From contig CM072343.1 in the NCBI GenBank assembly GCA_036874045.1, forward strand, positions 11,862,001-11,926,000: a stretch of 64,000 nt of DNA. The letters run 5' to 3'. This document shows positions 9,485-52,405 of the stretch, piece by piece. Positions within the stretch are counted from its first letter, which is position 1, and the number at the start of each line of letters is the position of its first letter. A model generated the notes under the pieces. That model saw nothing but the letters and a program-made list of their open reading frames with translations. It ran no database searches and had not been told where the DNA came from. The translations under genes were made by a program, and so were the position numbers. This DNA is from Cymodocea nodosa. Taxonomy: Eukaryota; Streptophyta; Magnoliopsida; Alismatales; Cymodoceaceae.

Positions 9485-9848
9485 ATGATAGCACACGATG
9501 TAAGAATGTCAAAAGAAATTTTCAGAACAATCAAGCTAAGTCATTTGAGAATTTTAATATTCTTGATCAATTTTCTTCATATTTAAAGAATATCAGATAT
9601 TGGAATTAGAAATCAAATAATGTTAGAAATGAAAATTTCAACTCTGGTTTACATAGAGATAAATGTTCTGATAATTATAACACTAAGAGAAAGAAACGCA
9701 AGAATAATTATCAGAAAATAGATAAGTTGAAGTTTAAAAATATTGATAATTTTGATATGGCTCTCTCTAAAATTCTTGGACCCACTCAAAAATGGGTTCC
9801 AAGAGATAAAATCTCTTTTTGACTGTTTTGTAGGTACACAAATCAAAA

Positions 9849-14891: not shown

Positions 14892-17443
14892 ATGTTAGGA
14901 CGTGGAAGAGGATGTGGTAGAATGACAAAAGTGCAGAAAAGAGAGCTGGAACTTCAGAAAATGCAAAGTGAAATCAACGACATCTACTCAAGGTACACTT
15001 TTACAAATGAAATACTGCATGAAATTAGAAAAGCTGTTCAAGACAAGAAAAATTTTTGTTGGAAGTTTATTCGCAATTATGCTAAAACACAGTTTAGACT
15101 AAAACAAACTGAACTTTGCGCATTACAACTATGGAAATGAACTTTACAACCTAACCCTGCGGTTGTTACAAGTTTTGGACATGTACCTAAAAAATCGATA
15201 CAATCTATCACTTACTATGGAAAGAAATGGGGACCAATGATAGAAAATGCAAACAGGGAATTAGAATCATTATATTCCCAACATTATTTTCCCTTGGTTG
15301 TTTTAGATGACATTCAACAGTTATAAATGAACAGAAAACTATCATTAGGAAAATGGGCTTTCGAAGTGAAGGACAAAAAGTTTATCAACTAAAAATGGCA
15401 AAGGTTGAGAGCATAAAACTCTATATTCCATTATTACCACCTAGGCATCATGGTGAAGGACCATCATGACCATAGGTGCCTTTAATAGGAGAAATTAAGA
15501 AAATTTTAGAACCTCTTGAACAACCAGAAACATTGCAGCCATATGGTCGGAAAAAGAAAAAGACAATAGAATATTTTGGACTAACTACAATTGTACAAGG
15601 AATATTGTAGCAAAAAGAAGAATCATTGAAAAATGGAAAACTATGTTCCATTGCAAAAGTTGGACAGACGTTTGTATCAGGAATCCCAATAGATGTAACA
15701 AATATTGGATTACGCGCATGCACTCTAAGGTATTGTGTCACATTAGTGCATAATGTATCTTTTAATACAATGGACAGTTTTTCACATCATGCTGCAAGCA
15801 CACATTCTTTTCCTATGGAAAGAGAACATGTAGGAAATTTTGATGATACATATATAAATGATATCAATTTTGATGATATAGACACTACGTCTATGAATGT
15901 TGAAGATATTTCATTTGAAGAGGAGTGTACAGATATTCTTCCTTTAACTATATCTTGGATAGAAACTTTTGATTTTTGGTATAGTTGATTATACTACAGT
16001 TTATACATATGGTTATGTCTGTTACAGTATATAATATACTTGTTGATAAATGTATATAATCAACAACATACACAGTTACAAATTGAATATCACACTGCCA
16101 ATGTCTCAAGTATAGAAATTTCAGAAATACAGAATGAATCTATTATAGAACATTCTTTCCTACAGAGACAGTTGTTGTATAGATCAATCATAGATATACA
16201 TGTTGCTGACAAACAGATTAATATAGAGACTATTGCTACTAATATGTCTCAAGAAGATCAAACATAAGAAGTTTAGTAGATTATTGATACGACAATAACA
16301 GATATTTCAGACATTTATACCAACTTTGATAGAAATTCCACTAGTTCTGAAAGCTCTGAAAATATAAATATTATTGATAATATTGAAACCAGTCCCAGAG
16401 CAGAACATCATGACAGGAAAATACTTAATCCTGAACAAAGTTTAGACGAAAATACATTATTATGGTTTAGAAATAGTTCCTGTTATGAAAAATTTCAAAC
16501 ATATAAAACTTTTACAGTTTTATATTCAAGACCAGTTAAGTTTGAAGGGATGGCACATATACGAGAAATGTTTGAATTTCAAGGCTTATTGACTCTACTT
16601 CCACAACAGCCAGGCCATCTTGTTATACCAGAACTTATTAGTTGTTTTTACTCAAACTTAACAGTGGAAGAAGGTATTCCTGTTTCGAATATACAAGACA
16701 ATGACATATATTTAACTCCAGATTTACTTTATCAAGTACTTGGTTTGAAAAATGAAGGAGTTAAATTATCAGAAAGAAAACAGGTTTATCAATTGGGATG
16801 GGACATTAAAAGTTTAGCCAAAGATCTAACTACCAACAAACCATTGAGATTACTAAATGATTTAAATGGCCAAGCTCATTTTATTGCAAAAATACTACAT
16901 GCTTCATTGTTTTAGAGGTTTGGTCATGATGCAGAAGTGGGCAGATGTTGTCTTTATGCTACATATGCATTAATTAACCATGTATAGGTGAACTGGTATG
17001 ATATTTTTGTTTCTCATATCTTACATTTGCAGAGTAAATTATTTTATGGTGATACGATTTTGAGAATTGTGGCAAGTCAAACAAATATTACACTTTGGCC
17101 ATAGAAAAGATTAAAGTCAAGATCTTTCTCTGCAAAGGAACTCCAAAAATACCAGGAAGCAGATACACCTATAATTCAACAACAACAACAACATGATCGG
17201 CAAACATAGTCACAATAGCAACAGCAACAATCAACACAATTTTCAGAACAACAACAATATATAGATATAGATACAGGTATAAATACAGACATTTATTTTG
17301 AATTTTTACAACAACCACCACAAGTTTCACAAAATGATTTAGATCAAGCGGTAATTGATCATATAAACAAAGTAAGTTCAGAAATTGCAAAGCAAATTTT
17401 AGATACTCTGATCAGTATTTTTCGAAGACAAAGAGGCTTGTGA
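14892..17443 (+). pseudogene. C3 accessory (env-position) protein, decayed
   Basis: A first frame starts MLGRGRGCGRMTK at 14892 and is basic and helical. The region carries several stops and frame changes (15138, 15323, 15607, 15986, 16265, 16913, 16985). The best-conserved block is 16500-17100, with YSRPVKFEGM, FEFQGLLTLL, ISCFYSNL, LGLKNEG, LNGQAHFIAKIL and KLFYGD. It resembles the family annotated in plants as 'putative plant transposon protein'. The C-terminus is glutamine-rich (17175-17280) and ends with a short helical tail. Homologous blocks occur in Gypsy A (34250-34860) and C4 (51430-52090). The function is unknown. Confidence 0.7.
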
Positions 17444-25456: not shown

Positions 25457-27325
25457 TGTTTAGAATGAAAAAGTGCATATTATTAACGGTTAAATGATGG
25501 TTAATTGCATAATATTTAGCTTATCATATGAGAATTAAGCCATTATGTTATAATTGCACTGTTATATGCTTTAATTGAAGAATCTGCTTAATTTTGGAGA
25601 ATTAATGTTAATTTAGCACATTTATGAACTGTCGGTAAATTGCAGGCTATGAAATTCTTAAGTATCCGAAAATGCATCTGAGCATCAGATAGTTATACCT
25701 GTAACTCTTCGGAATGTTATTTTATGTTTAAACTACTGCTGACACGTGTTGAGAGCTGGTAGATTTACTTACATTATAACTCGTTAAGTTAGTATAACTG
25801 CACGCGTTGAGTTACATGAAAATACACTAAGACAACGCGTTAGGTTAGCGTTATAAACTTAAGTTGTTATTTTTGCATGTGTTTTATAGTTAAATCAACG
25901 AAGGAAGTCCGTTGAGTTATCTGTAACTCCACGGACTATATATTTTCTAATATGCCACTGTAGCGGTTGCAAGAACAGACAGTTGGAAGGAAAAACCACG
26001 TTTGCACGTATCACGCAGGAATTCAATCGCGTAGGGAGAAAGAAATCATCGCCGTTGATCTGAAGGAAGGAAATCCAACCAACCATTCAAGCAGAAGCAG
26101 TTACCACTAAAGAAATATAAAAGAAAATAAGAAAAAGAAAGAAAGAGTGTGATCGATGGACGGCCAGTGTATACAGAGGAGGAGCACCGAGCTTTCTGCA
26201 AATAGTATCGGCGATTCTCTGAAGTATCACACCAACCATCGTATCAGCACCATAATCACCAATCATCGGAGGTCTGTGAGGATACTTGCCTGATGTCAGG
26301 TCGATTCCGAGCCAAACACAGTGCCTGACAACCACTGTGAGGAGTGATCGCGTCGCGGGAAGGGAAGACATTTTCACCAAGCACCGACTCATATTTCAGG
26401 AGATCGTAAAGCTTTTAGCCTTGGTTTCGGGTTGATGCCTATATGCTGAAGAGGAGATCATCTTGTAATTCTGGACTCGCGATTCTATAGGGAGAGGAGA
26501 CAGAATTGTAAGTGGTTCAATTTTCAGTGGTGTAATCGCGTTGCAAGTAGTGTCAGAAGTATTTACTGTCAAGTGAAATTACTTTACATTTCACCTTTCG
26601 CCCATCACATCAAAAAAAAAATACCAAAAGTAATTTATCTTTGTTTGTATGTTGTATTTGAGTGTTGTATTGTTGGTGTTGTATTGTTGGTGTTGTATCG
26701 TGATTAATGTTATCTGTATCAATTTTATGATTGTTTTATGTTAGTTTTAATTTTACAGTTTACTGAAATTGGTTCATACAAAACAACTTAAAGATTTTAA
26801 TGGTTACTGTTTGAATCATCTGAATGTTAGTATTGCATAATGATAAATCTAATGTTAACTAGCATTAAAAAGCTTAATTAATGTTATTTACAATCTATGG
26901 AATCGCCCAATGGTTGGCCGAATTCCTTTGTAATTAGCAGTATTATAAAAAAGAGACAGGCTCGTGGAGTTAACTTAAGTCCACGAGGATAGTCCGTTGA
27001 GTTATCAATAACTCAACGAACTTAGTCCGTTGAGTTAACTGTAACTCAACGGAGTGCTTATTGAATATAAATTTGAATTGTTCACAATCAAACATTTCTT
27101 AAATTCGTCAGCAATTCCCTATGGGATCGACCTGTACTTGCACATTGATACAATAGACACTGTGCACTTGCAGTTAAAGTACAAATTGGAATTAATATCT
27201 AAATTGTATTAAAGGTTGTTTGTTTACTTCTAAAAGAAAGAATAGGCATAAAGATAAATTAACTAAGTAAAAATAGAAGTAACAAATCCAAGTTTTTCTA
27301 GTGTAGTGCTGGGAAGACGTGAACA
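25457..27325 (+). repeat. Element A 5' LTR
   Basis: This 1869-bp LTR runs TG...CA. It carries ACACGTGTT (25741), TCGTTAAGTTA (about 25782) and facing pairs such as CCGTTGAGTTA/TAACTCCACGG near 25909-25935 and again at 26995-27055. The R/U5-like region (about 27110-27190) has GGGATCGACCTGTACTTGCAC, which also occurs in diverged form in the B LTR. The middle (26000-26600) is less AT-rich and has an antisense ORF. Confidence 0.95.
26087..26392 (-). other. 101-codon antisense ORF in element A 5' LTR
   Basis: It matches the ORF at 6785-7090 in length, start (MSRCLVKMSSLPATRSLL) and end (VTASA). The 3' LTR has lost this segment by deletion. No known domain is recognised. Confidence 0.3.
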
Positions 27326-27332
27326 AGTTTTA

Positions 27333-27350
27333 TGGCGCCGTTGCCGAGGA
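27333..27350 (+). other. Element A primer binding site (tRNA-Asp type)
   Basis: TGGCGCCGTTGCCGAGGA complements the 3' end of plant tRNA-Asp with one mismatch (GAGGA for GGGGA). This primer is typical of Athila-like elements. It lies seven bases after the LTR end, and only 21 bp separate it from the first ORF, leaving almost no leader. Confidence 0.9.
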
Positions 27351-27371
27351 TCTTAATTGAATTGAACTGAA

Positions 27372-30300
27372 TTGAATAAATATAAGCAAATTTTAGAGCT
27401 ATTTCATTTTAATAGTCAGAGTTGTGTGTTTTCTTCTATAATTGAGAATATGGTATATGCTTATGCTCAAAGATTTCTGAAACCTTTAATTAGCATATGT
27501 GAATTCTGTAATTCTGAAGGACACGACATTTATGATTGTTTGAAATTGAGACATTTACAGATTGATAGATCCCATGAACAACAAATGAATTATCCTCAAT
27601 ATAATAGAGCTGAGTATGAGAATCCTATAGTTTACCCAACTGATGGTTAGTATAGAATGTGTAATATGATGAGAGACACTGAAGTTTGGGATAGCTATGA
27701 CAGACTGGAGCATAGTATAGATCAAAATCTGGACAAACTAGAATACTTTGTGTGTCAACAACAAGAAGTCAACCAACTAAACTATAAGGAGGCATATTCA
27801 GAACCTAAACAGGATATAATTTACGAAACTGAAATAGCCATAAAGAAAATTGATCAAAAATTGAATGTAATGAAATTAAATGATCTGGAAACAAAATTAA
27901 AAGCATTAGATAAAAATGCAATGAAAATACAAGTTTTGCAATAGGACAATGAAAATTATAATGTTATAAACCTACACAACTTGCAAAATATACAACAAAC
28001 AGAAAACACAAATGTAAGAGAATTTAAAGAATGCACTTTAAAACTAAAAACAATTGAAGATCATAATCACGAAAATGATATACAAAAACATCATGAAAGT
28101 AATGAAAATCTGGAAGATGTATGTGTAACATTAAGATCTAGAACTGATATACCACCAAGAACTCAAAATGAAAATGATATGAAGGTGGACAAGAGTAAAA
28201 ATCAAAATGATAATGAGAATGTAATAGCTGAAAATCTAGAAATCACTGAAAAACAATCTGAATGTGCAATTGAAGCTAAAAATGATCAAACAAATCAACT
28301 GAAAGAAAAAGAGTCTTTGAAATCAAAATCTTTAGCACCCTATCTTGAAAGATTACAACAAACAATTCCTGAAAAACAAGAAAAAATAAGAGAAATTTTT
28401 GAAAAAGTACAAGTTAACATTCCTTTGTTAGATCTATTGCAGAATATGCCACATTGTGCTAAATTTCTAAAGGATTGGTGTACTAAGAAAAGAGAGCGAA
28501 AAGTTCTTAGAAAGGTCTTTTTAGTTGAGCAAAGTAGTTACCTATTTCTACCACAAATTCCTAAAAAGTTATCTGATCCTGGAATCCCTGTTATATCATG
28601 CACCATAGGAAATACCATTCTAGAAAGAACCTTAATAGACTTAGGTGTAGGTATAAATGTTATGCCAAGTGATATATTTGCATCCTTAGGATTAGAAGGC
28701 TTAACTCCTACTAGTACGGTTATTCAATTGGCTGAAAGAAGTATAAGATACCCTAGAGGAAAAATAGAGGATGTCTTAATTAAAATCAAGAATTTTATAT
28801 ATCCTATTGATATTGTAATTCTGGATTCCCAACAAATTAAGCATAAAAATAGTGATACATCTTTAATTTTGGGAAGGCCATTTTTAGCAACATCAGGGGC
28901 TGTTATAAATTGTAAAACTGGAGTAATGAAATTAGCATATGGTAATGAGGATACTCAATTAAATATTTTTAAACCAGAAAGGTTTGAGGAGTTAGAAATG
29001 TCTTTACATACCATAGACTTTTTAGAGGATGAAGGAGATATGTTAGATGATGTGATTCAAGAAGAATTAAATAGGCAAATCAATTTTGAAACTTTAGAAG
29101 AAAGTGAAAGCATAAATATAGAAGGAGATCAGGAAGAAATTAATTTAAAAAATGATGATGTTCAATTAGGAGCTCTAGCTTCTAATGGGCAGCAATTAGA
29201 ATTAAAACCTTTACCTCCTGAATTAACCTATATATTTCTGGAAGATAAATGGACCTGTCCAATCATTATTGCTTCAGATTTGAAAGAGGATCAAATAGCT
29301 AAATTAAAAGAGGTAATAAAAAGTTATAAAGAAGCAATAGGATGGACTATGACTGATATAAAAGGGTTAAGTTCAACTTTATGCTGTCACCACATATATT
29401 TAGAAGAGAATGCTAAACCTGTTAGAATTCCTGAGAGGAGATTAAATCCAAACCTTAAGGAAGTAGTCAGGAAGGAAATAGTTAAATGGTTAGATAATGA
29501 TATAATATATCCGATTTCTGATAGCTCGTGGGTTAGTCCAATCCATGTAGTTCCCAAGAAATCAGAATTAACAGTTATTAGGAATGAAAGTCAAGACTTG
29601 ATACCTACTAGAATTCAATCAGGCTGGAGAGTATGTATAGACTATAGAAAGCTAAATGTTGTGACTAGGAAAGATCATTTTCCCTTACCTTTTATAGATC
29701 AAATGTTGGAAAGATTAGCAGGGCAAGAATATTTTTGTTTCCTAGACGGGTATTTAGGGTATAATGAAATTCCAGTAGCATTAGAGGATCAAGAGAAAAC
29801 AACTTTCACCTATCCTAATGGAACTTATGCTTTTAAAAGAATGCCATTCGGATTATGCAATGCACCAGCTACCTTTCAAAGGTGTGTGTAGGGCATATTT
29901 ACTAGAATGACTGATGAATTTTTAGAAATATTTATGGATGATTTTACTGTATATGGCAACTCATATGAAGTGTGTTTAAGCAATTTAGACCAAATATTAA
30001 AATGCTGTGTGGAAAAAAATCTGGTTTTAAATTGGGAAAAATGTCACTTCATGGTTAAACAAGGAATAGTCTTAGGGCATGTTGTTTCTAAAAAAGGGTT
30101 GAAGTAGATAAAGCTAAAATAGAAGTAATTTCTAATCTACCAAAACCTAAATCAGTAAAAGATATTAGATCATTTCTAGGACATGCTGGTTTTTATAGAA
30201 GATTTATTAAAGACTTTAGCAAGATAGCTAGACCTTTAACTAATCTATTAAAAGATGTTCCATTTAACTTTGATAAAAATTGCAAGGAAGCATTTTTTAG

Positions 30301-32090
30301 ACTTAAGACTAGCTTAATTTCAACTCCTATAATTCAAGCACCTAATTGGAATCATCCATTTGAATTAATATGCGATGCTTCTGATTTTGCTGTAGGAGCA
30401 GTGTTAGGACAGAAAATAGAAAAATCTCCTAGAGTGATTCATTATGCAAGCAAAACCTTAAATGATGCTCAAGTTAATTACACAACTACTAAAAAAGAAT
30501 TATTAGCTGTTGTGTTTGCTTTAGAAAAGTTTAGACCATATTTGATTGGAGCTAAAGTAATAGTATACACGGATCATTCAGCTCTAAAACATCTAATAAA
30601 GAAAAAAGAAACTAAACCTAGATTGATCCGATGGATATTATTATTGCAAGAATTCGATCTAGAAATTAAAGATAAAAAAGGTTGTGAGAATGTAGTAGCA
30701 GATCATTTATCAAGATTACAAATAGAAAAATCAAATATTGAAATTAAGGATAATTTTCTTAATGAACAATTAATGACCATCAACACAATGCCTTGGTATG
30801 CAGACATAGTTAATTACTTAGTTACTGGTTTAACACCTAAGGATTGGAATAGACAGGATAAGAAATTGTTTTTCTCAAGAGTAAAATATTACTATTGGGA
30901 AGACCCTTACTTATTTAAGAAATGTCCTGATCTGGTTTTAAGGAGGTGTGTTCTAGAAACTGAATATTCGAGCATATTGTCTTTCTGTCATGACCAAGCT
31001 TGTGGAGGACATTTTGGTTTAGGGAAAACTACTGCAAAAATTCTGCAATGTGGGTTTTATTGGCCAACACTATTCAAAGATGCTCATAAATATTGCTTAA
31101 GTTGTTTAAGATGTCAACAAATAAGAAGAATATCAAAGAGGAATATGATGCCTCTTAATCCTATTATTGAGGTTGAAATCTTTGATGTGTGGGGAATAGA
31201 TTTTATGGGTCTATTTCCTATATCTAATCAATTTAATTACATATTGTTGGGAGTGGATTATGTATCTAAATGGATAGAAGCTATTCCTACAAAAACTAAC
31301 GATAACAAAGTGGTAATACAATTTATAAGAACAAATATATTTGCCAGATTTGGAATACCTAATTATCAATGATAGAGGAACTCATTTCTTTAATAGAAGT
31401 TTTGAAGCCTTAATGAAGAAATATGGAGTAAACCACAAAATTGCAACATCATATCATCCGCAAACAAGTGGACAAGTAGAAAGTGCAAACAAACAAATTA
31501 AATTAATCTTGGAAAAAGTAGTAAATCCTACTAGAACAGATTGGGCTAATAGATTGATTGATGCACTTTGGGCTTATAGAACTGCTTATAAAACGAGCTT
31601 AGATATGTCACCTTTTAGGCTAGTATATGGAAAAAGTTGTCATTTACCTGCTGAAATAGAACATAAAGCTTATTGGGCATTAAAAACTCTGAACACTAAT
31701 TTAAAGCAAGCTGCTGAAAATAGGAAAATGCAACTAATTGAATTAGAAGAATTTAGAAATGAAGCTTATTCAAAGAGTATAAGAGAAAAAGAGAAAATGA
31801 AATTCTAGCATGATAGGAAAATTATTCCTAAAAACTTTGAAAAAGGGCAAGAAGTATATCTTTATATGGCTAGACTCCATAACCATCCAGGAAAATTAAG
31901 ATCTAGATGGGTAGGACCTTACATAGTTCGAAATGTTTATCCTTATGGAGCTATTGAAGTTGAAAATCTTAAAAATCAGAATATATTTAAAGTAAATGGA
32001 CAAAGACTTAAACCTATTCTGAAAACACCAAAAAGCTCCTTTGGAATTATAGAAGAAATCAGAGTAGAGGACTACTTGAGTTTTACTTAG
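27372..32090 (+). pseudogene. Element A pol with N-terminal zinc knuckle: PR, RT, RNase H, integrase
   Basis: The frame opens with a zinc knuckle CEFCNSEGHDIYDC (about 27505-27545, CX2CX4HX4C) and then an acidic helical region. Protease is near 28635 (LIDLGVGINVMP; the usual DLGAS has become DLGVG) with LGRPFLA near 28880. RT has DYRKLN (29640), FLDGYLGYNEI, RMPFGLCNAPATFQR and FMDD (29935). RNase H has [19 protein letters not shown] and YTDHSALK. Integrase has the HHCC finger (30990-31125) and D-D-E residues ([21 protein letters not shown]). Lesions are stops at 27648, 27943, 29889 and 31806 (Trp expected), and frameshifts near 30097 and 31357. No capsid domain is present here; it is at 36119. 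Confidence 0.92.
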
Positions 32091-32112
32091 TAAGAAATCA
32101 GTTTTTATGTTT

Positions 32113-32132
32113 ATATATATATATAAAAAAAA
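32113..32132. repeat. AT/poly-A tract after pol
   Basis: An (AT)n run followed by a poly-A run lies about 25 bp after the pol stop. Confidence 0.8.
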
Positions 32133-32164
32133 AAACATTAAAAATATATATAAAACATAAAAAT

Positions 32165-32450
32165 AGTTGCGGTTCAACCGACTGGATCCATCGGTATGGC
32201 CAGAAAATTAAAAAAATATTTAGGTCTGACCGAAGCGTAGCATCGGTATGACCGGAACATTAAAAAAAAGATATTGGTTTTACCGAAGCATAGTATCGGT
32301 TAAACCGGGAAAAAAAATTGAATATTAATTTTCAGAAAAAAATTTGTTTTACCAAAACATAGTATCGGTTCAACCAAAAGAAAGATAAAAAAATAAAAAA
32401 ATATTTAGGTCTGACCGAAGCATAGTATCGGTTAAACCTGTAAAAAAATA
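32165..32450 (+). repeat. Diverged tandem hairpin repeat (ACCGA...TCGGT)
   Basis: Five imperfect units each contain ACCGA, about 10 bp, then TCGGT, so each can fold on itself. The units begin near 32177, 32229, 32282, 32351 and 32414, separated by A-rich sequence (spacing about 52-69 bp). The core phrase is ACCGAAGCATAGTATCGGT. It lies between pol and the motif array of ORF2. I do not know this repeat from elsewhere in the window. Confidence 0.75.
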
Positions 32451-32502
32451 GAAAAACTATTCTCTATAATATTTTTATTATTATATTTGCTTGTACGGGG
32501 AG

Positions 32503-32600
32503 TCCGTTGAGTTACGCTTAACTCAACGAGCTTACTCCGTTGAGTCTTGAGTTAGTCAACGAGCTTATTCCGTTGAGTTACATGTAACACAATGGAGTAC
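32503..32600 (+). promoter_or_regulatory. TAACTNNNCGR motif array ahead of element A ORF2
   Basis: TCCGTTGAGTTA (32503) faces TAACTCAACGA (32519). Further copies are at 32537 (degraded) and 32570. The array sits 180-280 bp upstream of the ORF2 start at 32780. The same facing pairs occur in this element's LTRs. An internal promoter role is inferred. Confidence 0.5.
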
Positions 32601-32779
32601 TGTAGCTAAGATCGCGGATGAAATAGTAATAGTTGGTTCGGGAAATGACCCGATTACCCGCCTAAACTTAGTGCTTATTTAAACTAAAACCTAGGGTTTT
32701 GGGGGCATTATCCGACAAATCATTTAGAATCTAGAACAGTAGAAATCAGAGCGATTACGTGTTATTGTGTAACTCCACA

Positions 32780-35006
32780 ATGATGAAGATGACGCCTAAA
32801 TTCTGGGAAGATGTTGTTGATACATCAGAATTTCTGAAGGAATCAGAAGAGTGGCACACGCGGTAGAAGATCAGAAATACGACAAGAGAGAAAGAGCTAC
32901 AGAAGGTAGAATCGGAACTTTTCAAGTTGAGAAGAGATTTAGTAGATATGGATATACGAATACCTCAAATAATGGAAACACGAATCAATATAGCAATAGA
33001 AATAGCAGTAAGTAAGGAAAGACAAATAAGGCCAAGTAACGAAGTTGCCCTAGAATTAATCCAGCGTAAGTCCCGACTCTGGTTCAAAAGACGAATCTGT
33101 AGACAAGCTAAACGGGTGATCTGGGAGCAAGGAAGGAAAGCAAATGAAGAGGCAACTGAAGAATAGGAGGAACCAACTGCTGAAAGACCTGTTCCTAAGG
33201 AGCAGCAGCCTAGACCTTCAGTTCCACCATTTAAGCCGTTGGCACGAGTAGAAATGATGGGGCCTTCGACTAAAGAAGAAATAAGAGAATTTGCAAAACT
33301 GGTTCAAGTTGGAAAAAACCAACGAGAATCAAAAGACTTGGCAGTGGTTAAAGCACACCTGGTGTTTGATGCACTGTACAAAAAGAGGGCTGTAGAAAAG
33401 TTGAAAGCCCAATATAAAATCAAGGTGGAACAGCATCACGCAGGTACTGCCAGAACTACTGCCAAATCTGCTGCAAAAGAAGATGAAGCTGGTCCTTTGA
33501 GACCAGTAATTATAGGAAAAGTTAAACAGGAAGAGCCAGTACCTGTGGCTCGAAGGCCTGTAGAGCCTACTTTTGTAGATTTAATTTCAGAAGATGAAGA
33601 GGAAGAACAGGCACAACTAATCAGAAAAAAGAAAGGAAAAGGAAAAGTGCCTAAATATGAGGAAATTAAATCTGAAGTAGTAATTTTTACAAGGCCTGTG
33701 GAGCAGATTTTTATTAACCTACTATCCGATTCTGAGGAGGAGCAGGAGGAGCAAAGAAAATAAAAAAATCAGGCTGAAATTAGTCTGCAGCCTGTACAAG
33801 AAGAAACAGAAATTAGGGCAGAAACTGAATTGCTCGTGACTCCATCCCAATCTGTTACAGAATCAGAAAGAACAGTAACAGAACAGATTGGTAGTCAGGA
33901 GGAAGAAGAAAGAGTAGAAAATGAAGAGGTTGAAAGAAGCCATTTGGACAAAAATAATTTCACAGATTCCACTAAAGAGCAAGAAACTCTTCAGCAAATT
34001 ATGGAAAGAATTCAAGACAGAGTGGAGAGTTCTGCCGGCTCACCACCACAGACAGAAGCAAAAGCAAAAATTCAGGAATCTGAAGAGAATGTCCAAATGC
34101 AGCCTATGCTAGAGGAAGAGCAAGAGCAAACCCCTCTAGAGCAACAAAGTCACCTTCCTAACCCGACTGAAACAACAATTTTGAATGAAGTACATTTTTG
34201 TAGTCAGGAAGCTTATATCAAATACCAAGAAATAAGGGGTTACGATATTATTTATAGTAGACCAGTAAATTGGGATGGAATGCAAGAAATCAAAGATCTA
34301 TTTGAATTCCAAGGTCTACTGCAATTTATATCTCAAGATAGAGGGCATGCAGTATATGAGAATTTAGTGCCCTGTTTCTATGCAAATTTAAGAGAAGGAG
34401 AAGGAGAATTAATTTCAAACGTGGAGGAAGCTGATGTACAGATAACACCAGAGCTTCTCCAACATATTTGGTTTAAAGAATGAAGAAACAAAAATTTTGG
34501 AGGATACAACTGCAGTTGAATGGACTAAGCAGCAAATTAAGGATTGTTTAGCTATCAATCCTGGTGTGCCATTATTAAACAGATTGAAGCATTTAAATGG
34601 TAAAGCACACATGGTAGCTAACATTCTGATTAAGAATGTCTATCAACGACAGGGCCATGACATAGAATTAAGTCAATTTGTCAAATGGGCCACGTATGCA
34701 GTTGTAAATAAGATCCAAATAAATTGGTATGCAATTTTTATCTCCAAGCTGAAAATAGTAAAGAAGAAATTATTTTATGGAGATTTGATTCCACTGCTGA
34801 TGGTGGATAGTATTGATTTCACTAAATGGACATTAAAAAGGATAAGATCTAGAACCATTTCGATGAAAAAATACAAAAATTTTGTAGCTGTAGAACTAGC
34901 AGTATCTTCTGGAGGAATTGTAGGAGCAGTAGAGAGGATAAATCAATTAGAGCAGCAATTAGAAAAACTCCAGAAGGAAGTAGATGAACTTAGGCATAGA
35001 GATTAA
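32780..35006 (+). pseudogene. Element A ORF2, accessory 'plant transposon protein' type
   Basis: A single reading frame can be followed from ATG at 32780 through stops at about 32864, 33164 and 33761 to a frameshift near 34470, then on to 35006, about 740 codons. It has a basic helical N-terminus, an acidic/glutamine-rich middle (33590-34140) and a conserved block from 34190. That block has YSRPVNWDGM, FEFQGLLQFI, VPCFYANL, LGLKNE, LNGKAHMVANIL, INWYAIFISKL and KLFYGD. A leucine-heptad coiled coil ends it (about 34935-35000). The conserved block is clearly homologous to C3 (16500-17100) and C4 (51430-52090). It occupies the place of Athila env-like ORFs; I see no signal peptide or membrane segment. 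Confidence 0.75.
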
Positions 35007-35449
35007 ATTGTATTGTTCGTCTACTTGTGTAAAATTGTATGAAATTGTATGATGTACTTGTAATGTAATTGATTCATATTAATGAATATAATTTTTCAGA
35101 TGCAATTTTCATACGTGTTTTGAATGTGAAATGAATGGAAATTATTGAATATTATGTTATTATGAAACTTTATGAATGAATATGTAACAGATTTACAATT
35201 TGCTGAATGACAAGATAACTGCTTAAAAATTTCTGCATGTTATAAGGTAAAATGTAAATTCTGCATAACATAAAATGACCTACAATTTAAATCTTTATAT
35301 AATGTTCAGATTTAAATGTATTTTAATCAAAATGAGGCATTAATGACAAACATTTAACTTTATTACAATTAGTAGAATGACAAAGAAAAAAAAAAAAAAA
35401 AAACAGAATATAAAACTTACGAGAGTGAAACTTAGAAGTTGCTAAGTGT
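35007..35449 (+). other. Spacer after ORF2, with poly-A tract
   Basis: The spacer is AT-rich without an ORF. A run of about 18 A lies at 35386-35403, about 380 bp after the ORF2 stop and 50 bp before the next motif array. Confidence 0.6.
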
Positions 35450-35620
35450 TAACTCAACGAAGTAAGTCCGTTGAGTTAACCGTAACTCCACGAGGTTAGT
35501 AATATAATATAAGGTCACTCCGTTGAGTTATCTGTAACTCAACGAAGTTAGTCCGTGGAGTTAGCAACAGTAACCGATTGTGTTTTGTTGAGTAATCTGT
35601 AACTCAACGAGGTTAGTTCG
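35450..35620 (+). promoter_or_regulatory. TAACTNNNCGR motif array ahead of element A gag
   Basis: TAACTCAACGA (35450), CCGTTGAGTTA (35468), TAACTCCACGA (35483), CCGTTGAGTTA (35520), TAACTCAACGA (35535), CCGTGGAGTTA (35553) and TAACTCAACGA (35600) alternate in orientation, making nested inverted repeats. It is the densest internal array in the window. It lies upstream of a small ORF (35689) and gag (36119). Confidence 0.55.
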
Positions 35621-35688
35621 TGGATTAAGCAGAATGGTTATTCTTTTAACCACAAACGAAACTTCGTCGGTTTAGCGGTTACCAAAAT

Positions 35689-35934
35689 TTGAAATTAGTA
35701 GTGGTACACGTACCTATTAAAATAGGAACCACGATGCACGTTGCAAGACACGTTCTTGCAATGAGATTTATTCACTTTAGGGATGCGCAGTATATATATG
35801 AAACAGAATGTTGTTTACGAGTTACCAAGACTTTTAAGAGAAAGGAGAAAGCATTGGAGAAACTGGAAGGAGAAGTAGCTGATTCAACCTTCATCCGACA
35901 ACAAATATTTATAGAATGGAAAGCTTCAGACTAG
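35689..35934 (+). CDS. Small ORF of unknown function between array and gag
   Basis: This 81-codon frame (MKLVVVHVPIK ... WKASD) is basic, with a helical C-terminal half. I recognise no domain. It begins about 70 bp after the motif array and ends 185 bp before gag, so it could be an upstream ORF in the gag leader or chance. The start could also lie upstream. Confidence 0.25.
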   Translation: MKLVVVHVPIKIGTTMHVARHVLAMRFIHFRDAQYIYETECCLRVTKTFKRKEKALEKLEGEVADSTFIRQQIFIEWKASD

Positions 35935-36118
35935 TATGTAATTAATCTTCTGTTATTTATTTATGAGCACATGGACTCGTTCTCTAAGCACTAAACGATT
36001 AGTAAGAACACTTATCTAGGAATTTTCATTGTAGAGGGGTACTGAAAAATTTTCTGAACTGAACTTTAACGAAATTCTTTGGGGTGTAGCTAACCTTTCT
36101 TTAAAAGAGAACGTAGAG

Positions 36119-37306
36119 ATGACTGCTCTAGTAGAAAAACCATTAGGAGAGATTCTATATCCTGAATTAATTGATGAACCTTCATGTATTCGATTGCCAA
36201 ACTTTGAGGGAGATAGGTTTGAACTGAAATCTAATTATATTAGTCAATTGCCACATTTTCATGGATTAGAAAGAGCGGATGCCTATTATTTCCTTAGAGA
36301 ATTTAACGAAGTTTGTCAAATGATGAGAATGCCGAACATGAGTATAGATGCTATTAAACTTAGATATATCCCTTTTGCTTTAAAAGATACAACTAAGAGA
36401 TGGTTATATACTCTGTCGCCTGATTCAATTTCTACATGTATTGAATTTTGCTCTATTTTTCTGGAAAAATACTATCCAACACATCAAACGATTAAAAAGA
36501 AGAAAGAAATATTAATGTGTAGCCAAAAACAGGGTGAATCATTCTAGAAATATTTTGAAAGATTTAAAGATTTACTGACTCAATGTCCACATCATGCAAT
36601 GAGTAAAGCACAATTAATAGGCATAATTTATGAAGGCATAGATGTTTCAACAAAATCTTTATTAGAATCTACTTGTCAAAATGGATTTTTAAAATTATGT
36701 AGTGAAGAAGCATGGGCATATTTAGAAAATTTTACAAAAAGAACTGCATAGTGGGAAAATTCGGCTGAAGCTATTGTAGATAAAAGATTATTACCAAGAG
36801 GAATGCATGAAATAGATTCCAATACTATGCTTGAGGTGAAATTAAATGAATTAACAAAGAAAATAGAAGAGTTATCATTAAATCAAAAGCTAGCAGAAAA
36901 GAATACAAACATAAATGACTTAGATATTATTTATGCTAGAAACCAGAGAGATAACTTGGGAAATTCTTATAATCTTAATTGGAGAAATCACCCGAATTTA
37001 TCTTGGAGAAACAACAATTTCCAGGGAGGAGAAAATATAAATGAGAAGAACATAAGTTATGAAGTATTAATTGAACAAGGAGCTAGAATAGAGAAATTAG
37101 AAAAGATAATCCAACAAGTAAACAATCGTCTAGAATTTATATTTGAAAATGCTATAAATCAAAATCAGAATAGAAATATACCACTTAGACAGAAGGAACC
37201 AATGGAAGTTAGACCTACTAGAGGATTGCCAATACAAGCTATACCTAAACCTGTCAATAGAACGGTTAATGAAATTGATACCACTTCTAGGAGGGCAGCT
37301 GAATGA
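36119..37306 (+). pseudogene. Element A gag (capsid), located 3' of pol
   Basis: One frame of 395 codons starts MTALVEKPLGEILYPEL, the usual beginning of Athila-type gag. The retrotransposon gag domain covers about 36175-36740 (LPHFHGLERADAYYFLREF, LRYIPFALKD, FLEKYYP, YFERFKDLL, then AWAYLENF). The C-terminal part has the family phrase NWRNHPNLSWRN (36975-37015) and a coiled coil (37060-37140). Only two in-frame stops break it, TAG at about 36544 and 36748. The zinc knuckle expected between capsid and the RNHPN phrase is missing; a knuckle is instead at the start of pol (27505). It is followed by a motif array and the F-box gene. Confidence 0.88.
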
Positions 37307-37388
37307 AGCAGCATATCTGAAGCAACTATCTGTATGTATATATGTTTTTATTTTTATTTTAAGTTAATAGTATCGTAGTGTTAATTTT

Positions 37389-37433
37389 TAACTCAACGAA
37401 CTTAGTCCGTTGAGTTATGCCTTAACTCCACGA
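37389..37433 (+). promoter_or_regulatory. TAACTNNNCGR motif array ahead of the F-box gene
   Basis: TAACTCAACGA (37389), CCGTTGAGTTA (37406) and TAACTCCACGA (37423) lie in alternating orientation, ending about 70 bp before the F-box ATG. It is the shortest of the internal arrays. Confidence 0.5.
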
Positions 37434-37501
37434 GGGTGTGCAGTAGTTATGTTAATTTTTGTCTTTGCTAAATTTTTGTTTTTATTTTACAAAATCGACA
37501 A

Positions 37502-38440
37502 ATGGAATTAATGCAATTACCGTTGGATGCACAAAGGGAAATACTAAGTAACTTGTCAGCTAAAGATCTGTGCAGGATGTGTTGTGTATCAAAGGAAATT
37601 AAAGACTGTATTGAAGAAAAATATTTTCAGGGACTACAAGCTGCAAAAATGACTAAGATTAGAGATGGATTCATATGGAGGTCATTTAATCGTAGTTCAA
37701 ATACCCATGAATATCTGGCTATGGAAGAAACTACTGGAATTCCAACTAATGCATTAGAAGAAATGAGTTATATTATGGGGATAGATGAAGGATTAATCAT
37801 ATACAAAATGAGACCAAGGTATGCAAGTTTATCATTACCTGAGATTTTGATAAGAAATCTTATAACAGGAGAAGAATGTAATATAGGAAGACCTAATATA
37901 TTTGAAGCACCAACTGAAAATTGTGGGTTAGATTTAATATTTTCTAATAAAAATTCTGCAATTCCTGAAAAATTATATTATTGGAGACCTACAGGAAATT
38001 GGGGTGAAGATTTACGCTTAAGTGTGTATAATTTTCTAAACAGATCTTGGAATGAAAACATTATAATATATTTAGGACAGAAATCATTAATTAACCAAAC
38101 ACATGTCATACTTGATGGTTATATTTATTTAGTCACGGAGATATCAATAGCATATAAATCTGATTTATACATAGTGAGCATAGACAGTTATGATGATTAT
38201 ACAAAAATTTTACCTGTCCTGAGTGAAATAGTGAAACCACCATCTAAAAAATTTAATAAAATTCAAATAGGAATGTGGTATAATGAAAAAGATGATCCTA
38301 CTTTATGTCTGATAATATGGTGGGATGAACTGATGAAATTTCAAATATGGATTATGGAAGACATGAATGAATGGAAGTGGGAAGAGGAGTATATTGAAAT
38401 AGATGTAGAAATAGAAACTGCTACATTACCCTGGAACTAG
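37502..38440 (+). CDS. F-box protein gene carried by retrotransposon A
   Basis: The ORF has 312 uninterrupted codons. Residues 1-40 form an F-box (MELMQLPLDAQREILSNLSA, then KDLCRMCCVSKEIKDCI), the SKP1-binding module of SCF ubiquitin ligases. The remainder looks like an F-box-associated substrate-recognition region: PEILIRNLITGEE near residues 118-130, VYNFLNRSWNE near 177-187, then alternating strand-like segments. F-box plus FBA proteins of plants are typically about 300-420 residues, so the length fits. The gene lies between gag and the 3' polypurine tract, 70 bp after a motif array, with a poly-A tract 245 bp downstream. It is open whereas gag, ORF2 and pol are broken. A host target is unknown. 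It may be a captured host gene kept for the element's benefit, or a recent passenger. Confidence 0.8.
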   Translation: MELMQLPLDAQREILSNLSAKDLCRMCCVSKEIKDCIEEKYFQGLQAAKMTKIRDGFIWRSFNRSSNTHEYLAMEETTGIPTNALEEMSYIMGIDEGLIIYKMRPRYASLSLPEILIRNLITGEECNIGRPNIFEAPTENCGLDLIFSNKNSAIPEKLYYWRPTGNWGEDLRLSVYNFLNRSWNENIIIYLGQKSLINQTHVILDGYIYLVTEISIAYKSDLYIVSIDSYDDYTKILPVLSEIVKPPSKKFNKIQIGMWYNEKDDPTLCLIIWWDELMKFQIWIMEDMNEWKWEEEYIEIDVEIETATLPWN

Positions 38441-38996
38441 AAAGGATCCCTTTCTGCATTACATATCATTAATGGTAATACACTCGTATTTGGAATTTAT
38501 AATATATTGCATGTTTACAAATTAAAAAGGACCAAGAACTGCATTAAAACATAATTAATAGCAAGAAGAACTATGCCTAAAAAGTTTGCTTGGACTGATA
38601 CATTTATTCTATTTGTTTCTACTTTCAATCATGTTCTTAAGTTGTGATTTTGTGTGTTTAATGTTGTGTATTCTGCATTTATTTAAAAAAAAAAAAAAAA
38701 AAAAACAAAATATCAATCCAGTTTGTTGGTATCTGTTCTAGGAAACCAACTAGCTTGCTTGTGAGCCACCAAAGGCATAGAAGCCTGGGTTCCACACAAG
38801 ACACTGATTTATTAATACCTGTTAAATGTTATTTTGTTTTATATTCTGTGTTTATCTGGGAATGAATAGTTTTTCAGAGAAAAAAATGAATATGCAGAAA
38901 GAGATACAAATGGAACAACCAATTACTTATCTTGAATTTTAAATCAAACAAAACTTTATTCATGCCTGCTACAATTACTGTACTTATTGTCAAATC

Positions 38997-39039
38997 TTTT
39001 ACATTGAGGACAATGCAAAATGTAGGTATGGGGGGGAGG
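38997..39039 (+). other. Internal hairpin plus polypurine tract (first copy)
   Basis: A stem TTTTACATTG/CAATGCAAAA with loop AGGA is followed by AGGTATGGGGGGGAGG. Element B has the same unit (60209-60250, minus strand) with a perfect stem. Position about 1.3 kb before the LTR suggests a second, internal plus-strand priming site. Confidence 0.7.
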
Positions 39040-40317
39040 TAATTAAAGTAACAGCCATGCAAGTTTGTTAATTAAAGGAATTAAAATGGTATTGCAAAGT
39101 TTTGAGGAGATTGAAAATTTTTATGAACTTGTTGTAACTATCCGATAATTGAGACTGTAAAATTTTTATAAACTGCTTGAATGTTATATTTAGAAGGCTA
39201 TAGAAGATGCTATAGAATTTATTATTTATGTAAATCTAGATATAGTATCTTATGATTTTTCTGAATTTCATGAGTTTAACAGTTTCACGATTTTAAAATG
39301 AAATCAGAATATTTAATGCTTAATCAGAAAATTATCTGAAGTCTTGAAGGAGCTGAGATGTGAATTCTAGATTAAATGAAACACATATGATGAAAGATAC
39401 ATTTACTTTGACTAATTGAACTTGTAGAATGATTTTTGTGTAGATCTTATTAAACTACAGATAAAGTATGAACTTATTATTATGGATTCATATCTTTAGT
39501 AAATGATAGAAGCAGGATTATATGAGATTGGTGTTTTATTGCATCTGTATTAATGAAATACATGCATATACAGTATGTGATTAATGCTTTGTTTTGTGTG
39601 TGCATTTATTTTTAGAAAAAAAAAAAAAAACCTTAAGAGTTTATTGACTTGTTTGATCATGAGCCTTTTGTACTTGAGTAGATAGGTATGTAAGGATTGT
39701 TGACCTGAAAAAGGACTCTAAAAATCTGGTAACCTAAGATCTTGATCAGATCTGGGATTGTTGACTGAAAGCTCGTTACATGGGTACATTAGAAAGCTCT
39801 TGCATGATTCAAGCTTGTCAAATTAACTTTTAAAGTACACAAAAAAAGAAAAAAAAAAAAAAACATATACTGTTCTGAAAAGATACAAGTGTTTTGTGAA
39901 ATACAGATATCTTATGAATCGAGTATATTTTCTGTTATTTAGAATTGCTGAAATACAAATCTGGAATTGACTTTTGAAGTTGTTTAATGGAAATACAATT
40001 CTTTATTCTACTTGTCTTAATCAGATTGAATTGGATTGTACCTTGATTCGTATGTTGTTGAAATTTCTTCTAGAAAAACTTATTGGAAAATTCAAGATTA
40101 CAGATGACGAAAAGAAGAACAAACGATAATATAATTAACACCTATATGAAGATGATATACTTTGTATGTAATTTACATATATTCTAAATATCTTTGCAGG
40201 TTGATTACTGAAACATACAGAATATATGTTTATGCTAAATAGAAGAAAAAAAAAAAAAAACAAAAGGGGGAGAATTAATTCTAGCACTTTTTGAAAGACC
40301 AATTAATTAAATCTTAG

Positions 40318-40355
40318 TTTGCTAAGGGACTAGCAAAATTTAGGTATGGGGGAAG
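40318..40355 (+). other. Terminal hairpin plus polypurine tract of element A
   Basis: Stem TTTGCTA/TAGCAAA with loop AGGGAC is followed by TTTAGGTATGGGGGAAG and then the LTR. B has the same arrangement at 59033-59069 (minus strand). Confidence 0.85.
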
Positions 40356-41300
40356 TGTTTAGAATGAAAAAGTGCATATTATTAATGGTTAAATGATGGT
40401 TAATTGCATAATATTTAGCTTATCATATGAAAATTAAGCCATTATGTTATAATTGCACTGTTATATGCTTTAATTGAAGAATCTGCTTAATTTTGGGGAA
40501 TTAATGTTAATTTAGCACATTTATGAACTATCGGTAAATTGCAGGCTGTGAAATTCTTAAGTATCCAAAAATGCATCTGAGCATCGAATAGTTATACCTG
40601 TAACTCTCTGGAATGTTATTTTATGTTTAAACTGCTACTGACACGTGTTGAGAGCTGGTAGATTTACTTACGTTATAACTCGTTAAGTTAGTATAATTGC
40701 ACGCATTGAGTGTTGTATTGTTGGTGTTGTATCGTGATTAATGTTATCTGTATCAATTTTATGATTGTTTTATGTTAGTTTTAATTTTACAGTTTACTGA
40801 AATTGGTTCGTACAAAACAACTTAAAGATTTTAATGGTTACTGTTTGAATCATCTGAATGTTAGTATTGCATAATGATAAATCCAATGTTAACAAACATT
40901 AAAAAGCTTAATTGATGTTATTTACAATTTGTGGAATCACCCAATGGTTGGCCAAATTCCTTTGTAATTAGCAGTATTATAAAGAAGAGACAAGCTCGTG
41001 GAGTTAACTTAAGTCCACGAGGATAGTCCGTTGAGTTATCAATAAATTTGAATTGTTCACAATCAAACATTTCTTAAATTCGTTAGCAATTCCTTGTGGG
41101 ATCGACCTGTACTTGTACACTGATACAATAGACACTGTGCACTTGCAGTTAAAGTACAAATTGGAATTAATATCTAAATTGTATTAAAGGTTGTTTGTTT
41201 ACTTCTGAAAGAAAGAATAGGCATAAAGATAAATTAACTAAGTAAAAATAGAAGTAACAAATCCAAGTTTTTTTAGTGTAGTGCTGGGAAGATGCGAACA
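40356..41300 (+). repeat. Element A 3' LTR, internally deleted
   Basis: This 945-bp LTR matches the two ends of the 5' LTR but lacks about 850 bp, joining sequence equivalent to 25812 to that at about 26660 at a shared TTGAGT. A second loss of about 60 bp is at 41044. The deletion removes the GC-richer block and antisense ORF. Confidence 0.93.
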
Positions 41301-50885: not shown

Positions 50886-52405
50886 AGCAACTAGGAATTA
50901 AAATTCAAGAGACTACAGAACGTACTTGTTATCATGATTTTTCTAATATGGTAGATAAGAAGAAATCAGTGGCTAAACCTAAATTCTTTTTGCCCAAGAA
51001 AGGAGTTGATTTCAGGCATGTGGCTGGTAGAACATATCCTCAAATTCCTGATATTAGTATTGGCACTTTAAACCAAATTGCTCCTGGTCCTCCTCATTTG
51101 ATTTCTACACCTCCCAAATTTTTACTTACAACTTCAATATTTCCTCTTCCAACCATAAAATTTATGTATTCTAGGAGAAGAAAGAAATTTCTTTCCTCTC
51201 ATCCGAAGGTTGGAAACAGACAATCTACATTTCTGGAAGTCTCACCTCCTCCTAGCCCTCCTCAGGATCATCCTAGTTTATCAGATGAAGAATCTCATCC
51301 AACTCCTTCTCCTCCACCTATTACCATTAAAGTCATTGGAGATCAGGAGGTGAAATCAAAATTTTCTTCAGATATCCCTACAGATGTATATTATTTCAGA
51401 TCTACTGTAGCTAGGGATTTCTTTTACAATAAATATAAAAACATGAAGATCATCTATAGTAGACCTATAAATTTTTAAGGAATGGATACAATTCACAGTC
51501 TACTTAATCATCAAGGGCTTTTAGGTCTCATTTCTACTCCATCTAGATTATTAGTTTTTGAAGACCTAATTCCCCTTTTCTATTCTAATCTTGAAATTTT
51601 TCCCATTATTTTCTCCTACACTTACAACATCAAAAATAAGGATTGATGGAGAATTTTTGGAGACCCTTTTTCAAATACCATCTACTAGTATCAATGTTGC
51701 TTTTTCTCCATTAGAATTGGGGTGGCAAGAAATTGAAATGAATAAATTGATTAGCAAATTTCCTGATAAACATTTTAAGCTAGTTAAGACAGCTGATCTT
51801 CATGGTTTGGCTTGGATTGGAGAGGAAAGTCTACCATTAATATTGCCACCATTTTGTCTTCCTCTATATTTCAGAAAATCGGTCATGTAGATGAATTGGA
51901 GAGGAAAGTCTACCAAGCAACTTATGTTGTGATGGCTAGTATAAAGGTTAACTAGGCAAAAGTAATTATTGCTTAGATTTCTCATCTGCAAAGTTTTCTG
52001 TTTTATGGAGATTTCATTTATCATCTGATGACCAGATATATTGATTTATCGGGCAAACCTTTGAAATCCATTAAAAGAAGAGTACTACAGCTTAAGGATC
52101 TTTAGAGAATGTCCTCCTCTAATCCGGTTGAGTTGCCCCCTCCTTTTCAACCATCTGCAACTCAAAATTCAGCATCTCATTCTACAGCAGCTTCACCTCC
52201 TACCGCACCTCATTCTACAGAAACTCCACCTCCTGCAACACCTACTCTAGATCCAGCAGCTCCATCTCCAATAGTTGACAATTCTGTTACCCTCTTAAAA
52301 CAAAATGAGCTTCTACTTCAACATAATCAAATGCTTTTGAATCAAGTAGCTCATTTAGAACAACTTCTGAGGGAGAGGGATAAGTTAATTCAAGATTTGT
52401 TATAG
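50886..52405 (+). pseudogene. C4 accessory protein, 3' part
   Basis: The frame runs through a proline-rich section (51240-51320) to the conserved block: IIYSRPINF (51455), NHQGLLGLI, EDLIPLFYSNL, LHGLAWIG, LQSFLFYGDF (about 51990-52015). It then has a second proline/threonine/serine-rich linker (52120-52280) and a leucine-heptad coiled coil (52300-52400). Lesions are TAA at 51477, a frameshift near 51590, a 21-bp duplication at 51817/51895 and stops near 51953, 51974 and 52103. It is homologous to C3 (16500-17100) and A (34250-34860). Confidence 0.7.

Follow-up and report, generated by a model that had tools for sequence, protein, structure and literature searches.

A Ty3/gypsy retrotransposon family with gag downstream of pol in the genome of Cymodocea nodosa

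Results

Genes and features of element A

The window, the whole stretch of DNA analysed here, comprises 64,000 nucleotides of contig CM072343.1 from Cymodocea nodosa. It contains element A (25457..41300), which has two LTRs, a TSD and a tRNA-Asp-type PBS (Table 1). The LTR pair shows 3.5% divergence (939 aligned sites), and the 5 bp TSD (ggtac/agtac) matches at 4/5 positions. The ORFs follow each other in the order pol, encoding a CCHC knuckle, protease (PR), reverse transcriptase (RT), RNase H (RH) and integrase (INT), then a Transposase_32-like ORF, gag and a captured F-box ORF in front of the 3´ LTR. In the textbook Ty3/gypsy layout, gag is located in front of pol. The A family has the two LTRs, the PBS, the 5-bp TSD and PR-RT-RH-INT inside pol that are expected for Ty3/gypsy, but gag does not come first. 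The initial annotation had placed gag downstream of pol behind a tRNA-Asp primer site; this site was found, and the domain order in A, its copies and sister families bears the claim out. The capsid gene had been described as complete: its ATG at 36119 was confirmed, the completeness was not, since two stops lie in the frame.

Table 1. Features of element A (positions in the window)
Feature	Position	Strand	Remarks
5´ LTR, TG...CA	25457..27325	+	holds two CGTTGAGTTA palindrome clusters
PBS TGGCGCCGTTGCCGAGG, tRNA-Asp type	27333..27350	+	one mismatch to the tRNA-Asp pattern
pol, frame start	27366..27650	+	about 16 bp past the PBS; first ATG 27450
pol, linker, protease (DLG motif), reverse transcriptase	27945..29891	+	from frames and domain scan
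pol, RNase H and integrase	30092..32090	+	frame interrupted by stop codons in A
LTR-type palindrome array, before extra ORF	32505..32580	.	exact 9-mers in 8/10 copies; stretch deleted in the other 2
Extra ORF, Transposase_32-like (PF20167) in copies	33167..35006	+	frameshifted in A
LTR-type palindrome array, before gag	35450..35610	.	in 10/10 copies
gag (capsid), no zinc knuckle	36119..37306	+	ATG 36119; frame 36035-37306; two stops in A
LTR-type palindrome, before F-box ORF	37389..37417	.	in 9/10 copies
Captured F-box gene	37502..38440	+	F-box domain 39.2 bits, curated cut-off 20.5
3´ non-coding region	38441..40355	+	no palindromes; purine-rich tract at the end, adjoining the LTR
3´ LTR, internally shortened	40356..41300	+	about 0.9 kb missing compared with the 5´ copy

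The zinc knuckle opening pol (at 27498), which had been overlooked before, is also present at the pol start of L029, L031, L043, L047 and L048. The stops within pol (27945-32090) are private to A. Pfam scans of the RH-INT frames (without 31809-32090) detected neither a second RNase H (aRH) nor a chromodomain. The extra ORF and the F-box ORF had likewise been missed. Assignment of the extra ORF to Transposase_32 was made via the copies L009 and L013 (E=2.2e-5, under the curated cut-off); the ORF is missing from both sister elements that were read. The gag piece of A scored 22.1 bits with PF03732, slightly below the curated cut-off of 24.1, and the intact gag of a relative scored 79 bits (E=3.3e-22).

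The F-box frame is open for about 389 amino acids in many copies and ends at 312 in A; an F-box-associated domain (F_box_assoc_1) was detected weakly, below its cut-off. F-box relatives outside the genome were not found at E<=0.001 among 412 candidates from a protein collection seemingly poor in plant proteins, nor in the PDB at E<=0.1. A host donor gene was not found either, the 127 scored genome matches being 91-100% identical.

Copies of A share the gene order

Ten copies, selected via the junction between extra ORF and gag, were fetched from the genome. All ten contain the series extra ORF, gag, F-box, and six of them show the complete series from LTR to LTR. TSDs were present at 9/9 flank pairs tested (9 of 11 copies), five of them exact. 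Exact 20-mers were counted 846 times in the genome for gag and 625 times for the F-box gene. In match lists obtained with independent probes, the parts were co-located in the pol-first order only, apart from odd pairs: the pol start precedes gag by 8.9-9.1 kb (3 pairs), the junction between extra ORF and gag by 7.7 kb (5 pairs) and the F-box by 9.8-10.0 kb (6/7 pairs). Some pairs fit no single element (PBS-gag at +19.5 and -10.6 kb, pol start-F-box at +2.6 kb). In an odd gag-F-box pair at -6.0 kb, the gag belongs to L004, a sister-type element next to a copy of A. Derivatives lacking much of pol (L033, L034, L041) have retained gag.

The order of the retrotransposing unit is LTR-PBS-[knuckle-PR-RT-RH-INT]-[extra ORF]-[gag]-[F-box]-LTR. 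Nested elements are abundant in this part of the genome, and other elements interrupt several of the fetched copies, so that a nested insertion, a chimera or an assembly error might come to mind as the cause of the order in A. The chance of this is practically nil: copies with the same order are bounded by TSDs and lie on many contigs, the 20-mer counts run to hundreds, diverged families share the order, and no LTR copy is located between pol and gag (32090-36119), where the similarity to the LTR is limited to short palindromic repeats. The initial annotation had already argued against two nested elements and had named two observations that would speak against its claim, gag before pol in most full-length copies or an LTR or insertion boundary in this interval. 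Neither was made when the copies were collected and their domains scanned; the pol-then-gag order was consistent and TSDs were present.

Related families with the same order

Among 22 neighbouring pairs of knuckle-protease and gag matches, 19 have gag 4.29-5.27 kb downstream (protein identity 42-100%; 18 gags, one being shared by two pairs) and none has the standard order. For this count the best 150 of 4640 gag candidates were used, and one short fragment was left out of 114 matches. The remaining three pairs lie at +14.7, +3.4 and -6.3 kb, the gag of the last being the +5.0 kb gag of C18:6258994. Integrase was located directly upstream of gag in all 8 best gag matches (150 scored). Two sister elements that were read support the pol-first order, and a second pol-first example is present within the window on the minus strand. 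A capsid followed by a protease was found at none of 12 sampled tRNA-Asp PBS sites, and no standard-order relative was seen at two places read that had matched with PR only. In the L043 family the pol-first start was confirmed; for the L043/L045 family no gag was found within 4.4 kb past the integrase. A Copia element in the window has the expected order knuckle-INT-RT. The pol-then-gag order is a trait of the A family and of related families, which have diverged too far to be copies of A; it is older than the A family and does not go back to one rearranged copy.

Selection on the ORFs

Against six diverged copies, Ka/Ks was 0.25-0.47 for the pol start; against diverged copies it was 0.31-0.49 for gag and 0.25-0.60 for the middle and C-terminal parts of the extra ORF, and near 1 for its N-terminal part. 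In a comparison with a copy at about 20% divergence the F-box gene gave 0.35 (bootstrap 0.19-0.66), and in a second comparison 0.67 (0.39-1.28); frame controls were 0.61 and 0.99, with overlapping intervals. The best explanation is that the F-box gene is an accessory acquired later, under some purifying selection. Inside the A family the N/S ratios are close to neutral for pol, gag and F-box alike. Shared and singleton variants did not differ there (p 0.06-1.0) in a test that had no power, and our guess is that C-to-T decay lies behind this outcome.

These values bear on the idea that the sampled elements depend on a partner with the standard gag-pol order, which provides the capsid, the downstream gag being a passenger ORF. 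The superclade often carries extra ORFs (PMC6317226; citations here and below refer to parts of the papers named), no gag was seen in the part of the L043 family that was read, and the derivatives short of much of pol imply that supply in trans occurs. However, no standard-order relative appeared among the PBS samples, the knuckle-protease/gag pairs and the two PR-only places, the diverged copies hold gag at the Ka/Ks given above, and even the pol-less derivatives still have it. We therefore regard a passenger gag as improbable.

Expression of gag

Because gag and pol are separate ORFs, gag having a start and a stop of its own, and pol comes first, Gag and Pol would be separate proteins, and the initial annotation was right to ask for a separate expression route for gag. 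Since gag is located about 4 kb (A) or 0.4 kb (relatives) behind pol, with ATGs in between, it would be translated from its own mRNA. In the A family this mRNA would most likely come from internal promoters that reuse the palindrome module of the LTR, a reading to which we give about even odds. Palindromes of the LTR type precede each ORF, which speaks for internal promoters without proving them. In the sister families no LTR-derived repeat was found before gag, thus the promoter idea holds for the A family at best.

Gag and the F-box protein might instead be made from spliced subgenomic RNAs whose donor site lies in the 5´ leader, as for retroviral env, and the palindromes would then not be promoters. 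We consider this somewhat less probable than internal promoters. T-rich stretches followed by AG sites were seen by eye upstream of gag in A, L029 and L031, and splicing is the usual route for the 3´ ORFs of LTR elements (PMC5408684). However, none of 11 deletion junctions (one of which, in L026, is an element boundary) was intron-like with GT-AG ends, which leaves splicing unsupported, and spliced RNAs have no need for arrays before each ORF.

The arrays could also be targets of an anti-silencing protein encoded by the extra ORF or the F-box gene, by analogy with VANC, whose targets in VANDAL elements are tandem repeats of short motifs in non-coding regions (PMC10398659). The arrays are indeed confined to the LTR and three intergenic gaps, outside the coding parts. 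The 1.9-kb 3´ non-coding region contains none, however, and a role before each ORF fits better, which makes this explanation unlikely.

Discussion

We conclude, with a probability of roughly 0.75, that A belongs to an Athila-like lineage of Ty3/gypsy elements in which gag was relocated to a position after pol and the Gag-Pol polyprotein was abandoned. A has the tRNA-Asp PBS, the extra 3´ ORF and the absence of aRH and chromodomain that are typical of Athila, with Athila elements compared by description; all relatives of A that were found belong to this same genome. It shows neither the aRH nor the tRNA-Arg PBS of Tat/Ogre. aRH marks Tat/Ogre. The Ogre PBS corresponds to tRNA-Arg (PMC2533021). 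Like A, elements of the Athila lineage (Athila, Calypso, Diaspora, Medicago Mtr60) have a tRNA-Asp PBS a few bases past a long LTR, the DLG protease motif, a CCHC motif, an ORF behind pol and a length of 10-16 kb (PMC1142308, PMC2533021). In contrast to A with its separate capsid ORF behind integrase, Diaspora has a single gag-pol ORF in standard order (PMC1142308), and Mtr60 is described as GAG-RT-IN (PMC2533021). In two further respects A differs from Athila elements: its Pol begins with a knuckle of its own, and it carries an F-box gene.

In open-licence PMC papers we found neither the pol-gag order nor an F-box gene described for an element of this kind. REXdb lists 8453 Ty3/gypsy elements as GAG-PROT-RT-RH-INT, with GAG unidentified in 159 (PMC6317226), and has the same protein domains as A. 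According to the part of that survey drawn on here, unexpected domain orders were 'in every case removed' as likely mispredictions (PMC6317226), which may explain the lack of a published description.

The pol-gag order would have a single origin, probably a tandem or recombined element from which the first capsid and the second pol disappeared. From the anatomy, Pol would be made without fusion to Gag. This is similar to foamy viruses, in which Pol is separate and unfused and packaging must go another way (PMC3705302, PMC3196705); the likeness concerns Pol production, not kinship. In foamy viruses, however, gag comes first and Pol is made from a spliced RNA, whereas in A gag follows pol and requires an RNA of its own. 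The knuckle of Pol suggests RNA-mediated packaging: as foamy-virus Pol does, Pol might enter the particles unfused to Gag, and its own RNA-binding knuckle might help in this. LTR elements of bdelloid rotifers also have accessory genes behind pol, and Juno1 an extra pol knuckle (PMC5408684). Unlike in A, gag is ORF1 there and the captured genes named in that source are esterase, exonuclease or env, not F-box (PMC5408684).

The polerovirus protein P0 brings about the degradation of a host silencing factor. Tentatively, and with well below even odds for the whole, the parts could be joined as follows: the Gag-Pol polyprotein was abandoned, the knuckle brings Pol into particles, an internally promoted gag RNA sets the Gag:Pol ratio, and the F-box protein, like P0, directs a host silencing factor to its degradation.

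The gag-before-pol order underlies the setting of the Gag:Pol ratio and the packaging of Pol in LTR elements. A high-copy lineage without this order is a natural test of the need for Gag-Pol fusion and a plant counterpart to the foamy viruses. Since odd domain orders were dropped from the survey, such lineages may be absent from annotation libraries (PMC6317226). An F-box gene conserved in a retrotransposon with hundreds of copies is a candidate weapon of the element against its host.

Element A carries gag downstream of pol

The anatomy of element A, a Ty3/Gypsy LTR retrotransposon, is near certain (see table). Its LTRs differ by 3.5% over 939 aligned sites, about 0.9 kb of the 5' LTR is missing from the 3' LTR, and the flanks read ggtac and agtac. 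The PBS lies a few bases 3' of the 5' LTR and has one mismatch to the tRNA-Asp pattern TGGCGCCGTTGCCGGGGA, which has 298 exact occurrences in the genome. Pfam detects RT, RNase H (RH) and integrase (INT), with a weak protease (PR) match. Stops interrupt pol and gag in this copy, and its F-box frame comprises 312 aa compared to 389 aa in many copies.

Features of element A and of further elements in the window
Feature	Position	Location or content
Element A	25457-41300	LTRs with TG start and CA end
pol frame	opens 27366; first ATG 27450	
Imperfect repeats	32152-32454	five 52-69-bp units, ACCGAAGCRTAGTATCGGT core, directly 3' of integrase
Extra ORF (ORFx)	33167-35006	3' of integrase
gag	ATG 36119	3' of extra ORF
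F-box ORF	37502-38440	3' of gag
Part of sister-type element (minus)	63998-62292; 61906-60707	RNase H/integrase; then gag
LTR copies or pieces, A-like families	5882-8022 (minus); 56159-56852	
ORFs in other elements	16466-17152; 51425-52096	36-46% protein identity to extra ORF of A
Copia element	8534-12245	usual order knuckle, integrase, RT

Three DNA probes (ORFx-gag junction, LTR-PBS-pol start and gag-end/F-box stretch) were searched against the genome, and for each 40 places of about 4000-4800 candidates were scored; nearly all were full length with 94-100% identity. The separate lists co-locate in a single order: from pol start, the junction follows after 7.67-7.72 kb (five pairs), gag after 8.9-9.1 kb (three pairs) and the F-box after 9.8-10.0 kb (six pairs, with one further pair at 2.6 kb), and the F-box lies 0.93 kb behind gag (four pairs, with one odd neighbour pair at -6.0 kb). 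Ten copies were picked via the junction probe, which makes gag 3' of ORFx a selection criterion but not the remaining order. All ten carry the F-box 3' of gag, and six contain the full series LTR-PBS-pol-ORFx-gag-F-box-LTR, with the 5' LTR shortened in one and the 3' LTR cut in one; the other four are without parts of the 5' half. The LTR pairs of nine copies diverge by 2.9-4.8%. The claim of the initial annotation that gag lies 3' of pol in A was thus borne out by the whole-series copies and the co-locating lists, and the order is consistent in copies bearing TSDs, which were present in all nine pairs tested (five exact, four with 4/5 bases) among A and the ten fetched copies.

Exact 20-mers taken from stretches common to all ten copies occur 846 times (gag) and 625 times (F-box) in the genome, the reversed pattern 0 times; on one contig (C1), the F-box 20-mer was located 0.7-1.2 kb 3' of the gag 20-mer in 29 of 30 same-strand pairs. 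A single odd copy can be rejected, since the order recurs across probe lists, fetched copies and 20-mer pairs.

The reversed order in sister families

At the eight best gag matches (150 scored of 4640 candidates), integrase with about 67% DNA identity lies just 5' of gag. One sister element (L029/L030) has two LTRs 5.6% apart and contains a leader, knuckle-PR-RT-RH-INT and then gag; a second one (L031/L032) has the same order, with a second knuckle in its gag, and the extra ORF and the F-box are absent from both. The knuckle-protease probe from L031 yielded 113 usable places, 22 of them within 15 kb of a gag among the best 150 of 4640 candidates, all on the same strand. In 19 of these 22 pairs gag is located 4.29-5.27 kb downstream (protein identities 42-100%); the remaining three (+14.7, +3.4 and -6.3 kb) are odd or distant neighbours, the gag at -6.3 kb being the +5.0 kb gag of another protease. 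The sister-type element on the minus strand of the window shows the same reversed order.

Twelve tRNA-Asp PBS sites, spaced along 100 listed of the 298, were read for 2.5 kb each. Eight window-type sites and one of a new family (L043) lead directly to knuckle and protease, two to a knuckle and the integrase end with PR-RT lost, and one to spacers and gag with pol missing. Copies with gag before pol, named as contrary evidence in the initial annotation, did not appear: capsid followed by protease was found at none of the twelve sites, in line with the 19 of 22 pairs. Likewise, no capsid was located upstream at two further places matched by protease alone, both of which open with a knuckle. A single odd family is rejected as well, since both sister elements, these pairs and the minus-strand element share the order.

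In another tRNA-Asp family, represented by L043 (117-998) and L045, knuckle-PR-RT-RH-INT directly follows the PBS; no gag was found within 4.4 kb 3' of integrase, which counts against a universal rule. Derivatives that have lost either PR-RT or the whole of pol within the sequence read were also seen (L033, L034, L041); gag is present in the first two, and the sequence read from L041 ends in the spacer ahead of gag. The reversed order is real and general. No report of it was found in the open-licence PMC papers searched and, as far as these searches show, it is undescribed.

Evidence of selection on gag and the F-box gene

Comparison with diverged copies gave Ka/Ks values of 0.31-0.49 for two parts of gag and 0.25-0.47 for the knuckle of pol. 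In the extra ORF the ratio was near 1 at the start and 0.25-0.60 in the middle and at the end; pol gave about 0.1 when compared with sister families, at saturated Ks. For the F-box, comparison with a copy diverged by about 20% gave a ratio of 0.35 (0.19-0.66); this copy is 82% identical in the F-box versus 76-78% in the adjoining non-coding stretch. Wrong-frame readings of the same alignment gave 0.61 and 0.99, the intervals overlapping. A second F-box pair gave 0.67 (0.39-1.28). Within the window family all ratios were near neutral, and shared and singleton variants did not differ. These comparisons are good evidence that gag has been under purifying selection and moderate evidence that the F-box has been.

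The matched stretch is free of stops in 52 of the 127 best F-box matches (6463 candidates). The retrotransposon housing the F-box gene has at least 625 copies by exact 20-mer, and a subfamily diverged by about 20% (L046:1-326) carries the gene too.

Relation to Athila and possible origin of the order

A matches Athila in its tRNA-Asp PBS, DLG protease motif, long LTRs and 3' extra ORF, and has neither aRH nor chromodomain (features for comparison from the Diaspora paper, PMC1142308, and from PMC6317226). A thus appears Athila-like by features, a match made against descriptions of Athila. The gag of A ends about where, judging by motif, standard Athila polyproteins presumably pass into the protease linker, and pol begins just before this linker, as though this border were where the capsid block was severed. 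Such a border fits a tandem or recombined ancestor, which would have lost its first capsid and its second pol.

Proposed expression and packaging

Since gag is preceded by pol (4.7 kb) and a further ORF (1.8 kb), it would need its own RNA or internal entry, which supports the separate expression route proposed in the initial annotation. The LTR contains two clusters of a palindrome (CGTTGAGTTA...TAACTCAACG), further sites precede the extra ORF, gag and the F-box, and none were found in the coding parts of A or its 1.9-kb 3' region, which precedes no ORF. Exact palindrome 9-mers precede gag in 10/10 copies, the F-box in 9/10 and the extra ORF in 8/10, the other two being without that stretch; no repeats of this type were found in the sister families. 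Because the palindrome precedes each downstream ORF across copies, the sequence favours a shared cis module with internal promoters. The sites might instead be targets of a VANC-type anti-silencing protein; targets of this type look similar (PMC10398659). Alternatively, gag may be made by splicing, to which the deletion junctions in the copies give no support.

An intact CCHC is present at the pol start of A, L029, L031, L043, L047, L048 and six of ten long copies, and in the downstream gag of L032 only, L030 and the minus-strand sister being too broken to judge. The nearest mechanistic parallel are foamy viruses, which according to PMC3705302 make Pol without Gag fusion, but in which gag comes first. 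As the CCHC opens pol, the window family carries the nucleic-acid-binding knuckle on Pol and the capsid on Gag, and we infer a model of expression and packaging in which Gag would be expressed separately and Pol packaged without fusion to it.
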